Source: Gordonia amicalis NBRC 100051 = JCM 11271
GTDB taxonomy: Bacteria > Actinomycetota > Actinomycetes > Mycobacteriales > Mycobacteriaceae
DNA length: 64,000 nucleotides
Direction of reading: 5' to 3'
NCBI RefSeq assembly: GCF_000332995.1
Contig: NZ_BANS01000001.1
Span: 186,001 to 250,000, forward strand
How positions within the stretch are numbered: the stretch's first letter is position 1; the number at the start of each line of letters is the position of its first letter. This document shows positions 47,552-50,077 of this stretch, piece after piece. Under the pieces are notes generated by a model. That model was not told the DNA's origin, did no database searches, and saw only the letters and a list, made by a program, of their open reading frames with translations. The translations under genes were made by a program, and so were the position numbers.

Positions 47552-48286
47552 ATGGGTGGCAAGAAGCATCGCGGGAAGAATTCCGGCAGTGGTCTTTCGG
47601 GCGTGGCCGCGGCCGATCAACCGGGCTGCGGTCGGCCGGGCGGGACCGCTGCCCACCCGATGTCCGACAAGGCGTACCGGAAAGCCCTCAAACCGCTGCA
47701 TGCCGAACTGGTGGCGATGCAGGAATGGGTCCGGTCGTCGGGTGCCAAGGTCTGCGTGGTCTTCGAAGGCCGGGACACCGCGATCTTCGACCGGAGCTGG
47801 TACAACCGTGCCGGAATCGAACGTGTCCTCGGGTACTGCACCGAGGAGCAGGCGCGTCAGTTCCTGGAACAGACGCCGACCGTCGAGCGGGCGATGGTCG
47901 ACTCCGGGATCATCCTCCTGAAGTACTGGCTCGAGGCCAGTCAGGAACAGCAGACGCTGCGCCTCCAGAGCCGCATCGACGATCCGCGCAAGATCTGGAA
48001 GCTGTCGAAGGCCGACCTCGAGTCCTACAGCCGCTGGTACGACTTCTCCCGGGCGCGCGACGAGATGTTCCGTTACACCGACACCGGCTGGGCGCCTTGG
48101 TACGTCGTGTCCAACGACGACAAGAAGCGCGGACGGCTCAACGTGATCAGCCATCTGCTCGGTCAGGTGCCCTACGACCCGCTCGAACTTCCCGACGTCA
48201 CGTTGCCGAAGCGGCAGAAGCCGCATGGGTATCGACATACCGACCAGGCGCTGCATTGGATCCCCACGCCCTACCAGGAGCGGTGA
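47552..48286 (+). CDS. ppk2: Polyphosphate kinase 2-like protein lacking the Walker A segment
   Basis: 244 residues. PPK2 motifs VCVVFEGRD, FDRSWYNRAG, RWYDFSRARDEM and PWYVV are present, but between GRD (residue 75) and FDRSW (79) only three residues remain. In the PPK2 sequences I know about 53 residues lie here, including the AGKGG Walker A loop and the lid with PAPTERE. Adding 50 gives 294, the normal family length. PPK2 transfers phosphate between polyphosphate and nucleotides; this copy cannot have a normal ATP site and is likely inactive. Junction at 47774-47788. Confidence 0.8.
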   Translation: MGGKKHRGKNSGSGLSGVAAADQPGCGRPGGTAAHPMSDKAYRKALKPLHAELVAMQEWVRSSGAKVCVVFEGRDTAIFDRSWYNRAGIERVLGYCTEEQARQFLEQTPTVERAMVDSGIILLKYWLEASQEQQTLRLQSRIDDPRKIWKLSKADLESYSRWYDFSRARDEMFRYTDTGWAPWYVVSNDDKKRGRLNVISHLLGQVPYDPLELPDVTLPKRQKPHGYRHTDQALHWIPTPYQER

Positions 48287-48352
48287 GGTGACCGCCGACC
48301 AACCCGCGGTGCGGCGTTGCCTGGACGCGGTCGCACTGCGGCGAGCGCGCGC

Positions 48353-50077
48353 ATGAGCGTCGGCAGGTCGGCGCTCTGGCGCCTTCCAGGTCTCGCGACG
48401 GCCCGGGGATACAAGCGCGAGTGGCTTCGTACCGACGTCGCCGCCGGGCTGGTGCTCACCGCGCTGCTCATCCCCGCCGGGATGGGCTACGCCGAAGCCG
48501 CCGGGCTGCCGGCTTATGCGGGCCTGTGGGCGACGATCGTGCCGCTGCTCGCGTATGCCGCGGTCGGCCCGTCGAAGATCCTTGTGCTCGGACCGGATTC
48601 GTCGCTCGCGCCGCTGATCGCCGCGGCGGTCCTGCCACTGGCCGCGGTCGGTGACCCGGAGGACGCTCTCGCACTCGCCGGGATCCTCGCCGTGCTCGTC
48701 GGCGCAATTCTCCTCCTGGGCGGCTTTCTTCGGCTCGGATTCGTCACCGAACTCCTGTCCAAGCCGCTGCGACTCGGCTATCTGAACGCGATAGCGCTCA
48801 TCGTCGTCGTGGGACAGTTGCCGAAACTGCTCGGCTTCTCGGTCGACGCCTCGGGGTTGTTCCAGGAGATCGGTGAGATCGTCACCTCCTTGGTCGCCGG
48901 TGACGTCGACACGGTCGCCGCCGCGATGGGGATCGCCTGTCTCGTGGTCATCGTGGTCTTCCGACGCTGGCTCCCGCGGATACCGGGGGTTCTTGTCGCC
49001 GTGGTGGGTTCGATCGTGGTGACCGCCCTGTTCGGACTCGACGACGACATCGGGATGGTCGGCGCGCTGCCGGCGGGACTGCCGCTGCCGCAGTACGGCG
49101 GCATCGACTGGGACGACGTGCTGTCCCTCGTCGGACCCGCCGCGGGGATCGCGCTGATCGCTTTCGCCGACTCCGGAGTGCTGTCGCGGACCTTCGCCGC
49201 CCGGCGCGGCGAGGATGTCGACGGCAGCACGGAGATGAAGGCGATCGGCACGGCCAACATCGCCAGTGGACTCTTCGGCGGATTCCCCATCTCGGCGAGC
49301 GGTTCCCGTACGCCGGTCGCCGAACAGGCCGGCGCGCACACCCAGCTCGCGGGCGTCGTGGGAGCGGTCGCGGTACTGGTGTTCGTCCTGGTGGCTCCCG
49401 GCGTGACCGCCTATCTGCCCGACGCGACGCTGGCGGCAGTCGTCATCGTCGCGGCGACCGCGCTGATCGACATATCTGGAATGGTCCGGGTGTGGAAGTT
49501 GAGCAAGATCGAGTTCGGCTTGGCCGCGGCGGCATTCGTGGGCGTTGCGCTCGTGGGTGTTCTCCAGGGCATCCTGGTCGCGATCGGACTGTCGTTCGTC
49601 GCGGTGGTGGCGCGCGCCTGGCAGCCGTACCGAACAGAACTGGTGGAGTTGCGGGACACCGGCTTTCACGACGTCGATCGGCATCCGGAGGGCCACCGGA
49701 TTCCCGGGCTCGTGCTGGTCCGTTTCGACGCGCCGCTGTTCTTCGCCAACGGCAAGATCTTCGCCTCACACGTTCGGGAAACGTTGGCGCGCCACGGGTC
49801 ACCTGTCGACTGGGTCATCGTCGCCGCCGAACCGATCACCGGTCTCGACACGACCGCCGCAGATGAACTCGTCGATCTCGACCGCTCGCTCGAGTCGTCA
49901 TCGATCCGTCTGGTGTTCGCGGAGCTCAAGGGGCCGGTCAAGGACAAGCTCATCCGGTTCGAAATCGATGACCGGTTCGACGAATCGCGGTTCTATCCCA
50001 CGGTCGAGTCGGCTGTCGAGGCGTACCGGAACCGTGGTTCAGCCACCGCTGAGCCGCGGCCGGAGCAGATCCCGTAA
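48353..50077 (+). CDS. SulP-family anion transporter with STAS domain
   Basis: 574 residues from ATG at 48353. About 12 membrane segments (45-440) with GLPAYAGLWATIVPLLAYAAVG, the SulP consensus, and a cytoplasmic STAS domain (about 465-560) with VRFDAPLFFANG. Probably imports sulfate, bicarbonate or another small anion; substrate not readable. Its last 39 bases overlap the end of the convergent lipid-kinase gene. Confidence 0.9.
   Translation: MSVGRSALWRLPGLATARGYKREWLRTDVAAGLVLTALLIPAGMGYAEAAGLPAYAGLWATIVPLLAYAAVGPSKILVLGPDSSLAPLIAAAVLPLAAVGDPEDALALAGILAVLVGAILLLGGFLRLGFVTELLSKPLRLGYLNAIALIVVVGQLPKLLGFSVDASGLFQEIGEIVTSLVAGDVDTVAAAMGIACLVVIVVFRRWLPRIPGVLVAVVGSIVVTALFGLDDDIGMVGALPAGLPLPQYGGIDWDDVLSLVGPAAGIALIAFADSGVLSRTFAARRGEDVDGSTEMKAIGTANIASGLFGGFPISASGSRTPVAEQAGAHTQLAGVVGAVAVLVFVLVAPGVTAYLPDATLAAVVIVAATALIDISGMVRVWKLSKIEFGLAAAAFVGVALVGVLQGILVAIGLSFVAVVARAWQPYRTELVELRDTGFHDVDRHPEGHRIPGLVLVRFDAPLFFANGKIFASHVRETLARHGSPVDWVIVAAEPITGLDTTAADELVDLDRSLESSSIRLVFAELKGPVKDKLIRFEIDDRFDESRFYPTVESAVEAYRNRGSATAEPRPEQIP

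Follow-up and report, generated by a model that had tools for sequence, protein, structure and literature searches.

The closest described counterparts of the gene studied here are the class I PPK2 enzymes (TIGR03707), with structures solved for the proteins of F. tularensis (4YEG/5LL0) and S. meliloti (3CZQ). In F. tularensis PPK2 the lid is formed by residues 168-198 and follows the Walker B aspartate, Asp117 (PMC4748334). Alanine at K66, R118 or R178 of the same enzyme is reported to weaken polyphosphate binding and to lower activity dramatically, and an asparagine is given as the class I signature of PPK2 (PMC8776046). The same review also reports a PPK2 domain without activity, the N-terminal domain of the class II enzyme PPK2C of P. 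aeruginosa (PMC8776046). The Gordonia amicalis gene likewise encodes a PPK2 domain; however, the P. aeruginosa domain is one half of a two-domain enzyme, whereas the Gordonia amicalis gene is single-domain, carries an internal deletion and is found in this form in one genome. A search of the open-access literature gave no title concerned with a PPK2 that has such a gap.

Motifs lost and retained in the ppk2 product

The window, a stretch of 64,000 nucleotides of the Gordonia amicalis genome, carries an open reading frame, here called ppk2, at 47552-48286 on the forward strand, which runs from ATG to TGA and encodes 244 aa, while the orthologous frames of four other Gordonia genomes (G014, G018, G021 and G030) encode 280-290 aa. 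When these sequences are aligned, three residues separate the flanking motifs in Gordonia amicalis (FEGRD-TAI-FDRSW) against 53 at the same place in all four orthologues, so that exactly 50 codons, or 150 bp, are absent between GRDTA and IFDRSWYN, with the junction at about 47781..47783 (+). This is the one large gap across the alignable part of the gene. An earlier note, made from the window alone, had estimated that about 150 bp were missing with the frame preserved and three residues left in place of some 53. That estimate proved exact, and the alignment to PPK2 families and orthologues that it called for confirmed the gap, with the four Gordonia orthologues complete.

The product passes the Pfam cut-off for PPK2 (PF03976; 200.8 bits against 22.3, E 2.9e-59) in two stretches, but unlike the class I enzymes it scores under the cut-off of TIGR03707, the equivalog model for class I-type PPK2 (229.7 bits against 301.8), which the intact G. 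alkanivorans orthologue exceeds with 334.9 bits. A phmmer search against solved structures aligned two blocks, residues 35-77 and 72-212, to class I PPK2, and the F. tularensis segment between both blocks has no match in the product. Judged by its sequence, the ppk2 product is a class I-type PPK2 minus exactly 50 codons. Since the Pfam cut-off is passed and the equivalog cut-off failed, annotation could give the gene the name PPK2, and the locus would be a clean example of an early pseudogene whose frame is still open.

Both flanks of the gap resemble the class I enzymes of F. tularensis and S. meliloti, including the Walker B sequence DRSWYN with the class I asparagine and the two-arginine lid; the difference lies in the 50 missing residues. 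In the phmmer alignment the lost block corresponds to F. tularensis residues 65-114, with the Walker A lysine, Lys66, inside it; the loss extends over the Walker A GK with its helix, a strand of the core and the beginning of the strand that carries Walker B. From sequence and alignments, half of Walker A is kept as GRDTA (47768..47782, +), with the equivalent of F. tularensis Asp62 still in place; the GKGG that should follow is gone, and thus the complete GXXXXGK expected of a catalytic PPK2 is absent. The Walker B DRS and the class I asparagine, which a catalytic PPK2 should also have, are both present in IFDRSWYN (47783..47806, +; signature as given in PMC8776046). The same is true of the lid region at 47942..48034 (+), about residues 131-161 of the product, as located by alignment to F. 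tularensis PPK2 with the lid limits given in PMC4748334. Its two arginines, R137 and R141, correspond to R174 and R178 of the F. tularensis enzyme (phmmer alignment) and are invariant in an alignment of 27 rows. The earlier note had placed both the Walker A loop and the lid within the missing part. The former holds, as most of that loop, including GK, is gone; the latter does not, since the PAPxERE stretch it took for the lid is not the lid, and the true lid follows Walker B and stays in the product, which rules out lid loss.

A P-loop fold joins adjacent parallel strands through a helical crossover, for which three residues are too few. AlphaFold, which gives weak evidence on a deletion variant, models the product with three strands at a mean pLDDT of 81.1, falling below 50 at the junction (residues 76-81), compared with five strands and a mean of 86.7 for the intact G. 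alkanivorans orthologue. Normalised by target, the Gordonia amicalis protein has a TM-score of 0.69 to 5ll0_C versus 0.90 for the orthologue; for most of what is left of the chain the model thus retains a PPK2-like shape. With the Gly-Lys of Walker A, the helix of the P-loop, one strand of the core and the beginning of the following strand all lost, and with a three-residue link that cannot stand in for a strand-helix-strand crossover, the product would be expected to have no kinase activity.

Distribution and age of the deletion

Two sets of genomes, each including the genome of origin, were searched with a query of 33 aa spanning the deletion: 59 from Gordonia, of which 58 gave some match, and 301 from the family, of which 248 did. 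In the Gordonia set and, among the matches listed, in the family set, a full-length match came from the genome of origin only. None of the other listed matches starts before query residue 9; they cover the Walker B side and extend a few residues across the junction. The best E-values outside the genome of origin were 8.3e-9 in the Gordonia set and 4.2e-9 in the family set, where every matched genome was covered, compared with 2.6e-19 for the genome itself. In all 80 named relatives (80 kept of 196), GxxxxGK[GS] stands 57 residues ahead of DR[ST]WY. Each set holds one genome per species, and this species is therefore represented by one strain. The deletion thus appears private to this lineage, as far as these genomes go. 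A regulatory, non-catalytic relative of PPK2, offered in the earlier note as the alternative to inactivation, would be hard to reconcile with these results: the same gapped form was not found in several lineages, or in any other of the 59 Gordonia and 301 family genomes, and the orthologues inspected are complete. Most likely, ppk2 does not belong to a regulatory PPK2 family and is an early pseudogene seen in one genome.

Two further genomes are of interest here. The ppk2 of G344 gives two match pieces spaced as in an intact gene, as read from the spacing of the matches and not from an alignment. G345 (L136 / L126), a single-contig genome of the same clade as Gordonia amicalis, also has a broken copy of this orthologue; its breaks differ in kind, being frame-shifting deletions of 2 bases and 1 base and not a 150-bp in-frame loss, and its start region aligns poorly.

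Selection on the remaining codons was examined with a branch codon model (205 codons, five taxa, with gapped columns and the unalignable N-terminus left out), run on two topologies because the concatenated and ppk2-only trees disagree. Omega on the Gordonia amicalis branch was 0.038 against 0.063 elsewhere (p 0.34), and 0.037 on the second topology (p 0.28), so that ppk2 shows no significant relaxation of selection on this branch; omega = 1 on the branch was itself rejected (p 1.1e-4 and 2.3e-9). The claim that the rest of the gene is under constraint was thereby borne out, and the dN/dS comparison proposed for the flanks detected no relaxation, with the qualification that the signal may predate the deletion. 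Neighbouring genes, under our own labels and on one topology, likewise showed no significant branch difference (acad p 0.56, cbtA p 0.09, hist p 0.70), the largest shift being that of cbtA, with an omega of 0.110 on the Gordonia amicalis branch versus 0.050; lhr was left out of the codon models because G018 gave only a fragment. Private codons, counted as synonymous/non-synonymous, number 16/7 in Gordonia amicalis, 20/7 in G014, 12/4 in G018 and 7/4 in G021.

An open and constrained frame would also result from retained function, and to that extent counts against inactivation. The constraint signal can, however, stem from the history of the gene before the deletion. Since no relaxation is detectable in the remaining codons, the deletion is probably recent. 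Under a model in which the terminal part of the branch, a fraction f of its length, evolves neutrally, 2 delta lnL (first topology) was 3.34 for f = 0.05 and 5.16 for f = 0.08; given this drop in likelihood, the deletion most probably dates from roughly the final 6% of the branch, if selection ended with it and the gene has been neutral since, although the long synonymous branch lengths make any such age limit rough.

Inactivation and its alternatives

We consider that an accessory class I-type PPK2 has been inactivated by an in-frame deletion of 150 bp, recent and specific to this lineage, and give this reading a probability of roughly 0.83. The earlier note had suggested just such a recent deletion killing kinase activity, and the suggestion gains support from three sides: the deletion is found in its own genome only, it removes the equivalent of F. 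tularensis Lys66, and the flanks evolve as constrained sequence. What tempers the reading is that a single genome of the species stands behind it. Under this scheme, the deletion would have arisen recently in this lineage, leaving an early pseudogene whose frame remains open and whose product is probably devoid of kinase activity. Loss of ppk2 may have been tolerated because three other PPK2 proteins and a PPK1 remain in the genome; earlier disappearance of the adjoining P-type ATPase gene may have contributed. Two of the three other PPK2s pass TIGR03707 and one passes TIGR03709, all with Walker A, and the PPK1 scores over its cut-off and is matched across positions 1-672 of 673. This would be the ordinary loss of one accessory enzyme gene in a single lineage whose genome still has spare copies, and by itself it matters little.

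The chief remaining doubt on the deletion concerns the assembly. The strain could have a complete gene from which a draft of 94 contigs dropped 150 bp, an explanation that suits a gene otherwise open and constrained. We regard such an artefact as unlikely, since the junction lies inside a contig of 271,623 bases, the missing segment was not found elsewhere in the assembly (its best matches are the paralogues, with identities of 72, 61 and 36%, followed by three weaker ones), and an exact multiple of three has a 1 in 3 chance under random error. In addition, no direct repeat of at least 8 bases at a spacing of about 150 was found around the corresponding sites of G018 and G021; on the same result, a repeat-mediated deletion was rejected as the mechanism. 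It is less probable still that the shortened protein is kept for a non-catalytic role, for example with the lid binding polyphosphate or the chain joining oligomers of paralogous PPK2s: the retained Walker B, lid and class residue, the lack of detectable relaxation and the inactive domain reported for P. aeruginosa PPK2C (PMC8776046) would suit such a role, but the gapped form occurs in one genome only among the 59 Gordonia and 301 family genomes, the AlphaFold model shows fewer strands in the core sheet, and the constraint signal can predate the deletion.

The adjoining P-type ATPase gene

Scored by motif distance in 80 named loci (L035-L114) that were picked by similarity to the ppk2 product and are not independent, the P-type ATPase motif DKTGT marks an immediate same-strand neighbour in 49 (40 downstream, 9 upstream), lies elsewhere in 3 and is absent from 28. 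At paralogue loci the motif is downstream in 0/19 and in another position in 1/19, within 1.5-kb flanks that do not reach the upstream position. Within the orthologue group, 3 of the 13 Gordonia loci (L006-L018) carry the motif inside 1.5 kb, against 10 that lack it there, and the pairing is thus no general feature of Gordonia.

The ATPase is broken or gone in six of the seven genomes of the Gordonia amicalis clade. It is an open frame of 938 aa in G030 and two separate frames in G018 (L115) and G344 (L137), owing to one-base breaks that could be sequencing errors. In G021 (L116) it is about 80 residues short and out of frame, and in G345 (L136) a remnant match covers residues 848-912. No ATPase match was obtained at the locus in G014 or in Gordonia amicalis, where the best match elsewhere in the genome is 42%. 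Directly after ppk2 stands a frame of 586 aa (48317-50077), presumably a SulP-type transporter, and in G018 and G021 the ATPase gene sits between ppk2 and the counterpart of this frame. The segment at 48307..48353 (+), at the site of the gene of about 2.8 kb in G018, G021 and G030, is a probable ATPase scar, having short pairwise blastn matches to both gene ends, of which the 5' match is weak (28 bases at 75%). Upstream of ppk2, about 100 bp seemed to be missing relative to G018 and G014, which raised the possibility of promoter loss; G021, with a complete PPK2, is also short there, and we therefore do not count this as damage.

In G014 the PPK2 is complete and the ATPase gone, and nine further Gordonia loci (L010-L018) show no motif in their 1.5-kb surroundings; a missing ATPase is thus not in itself accompanied by loss of this PPK2. 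Loss of the pump before the kinase fits G014 and may have been the order of events. More tentatively, this PPK2 group could be a dedicated source of NTP from polyphosphate for the adjacent ATPase, with the Gordonia clade losing the pair piecemeal. We think this doubtful, as the motif is missing from 28 of the 80 named loci and, within 1.5 kb, from 10 of the 13 Gordonia loci; such a polyphosphate-fed pump would presume functional coupling of the two proteins. A search of the open-access literature returned no title on pairing of PPK2 and P-type ATPase genes. If the pairing is functional, the natural partial losses in this clade could serve to examine whether an ion pump is fed by polyphosphate. 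The Rhodococcus ruber ATPase exceeds the general P-type cut-off (TIGR01494, 258.6 against 62.3), and none of the ion-specific models it matched reaches its own cut-off. An adjoining P-type ATPase gene is also present at L117:10719-13532.
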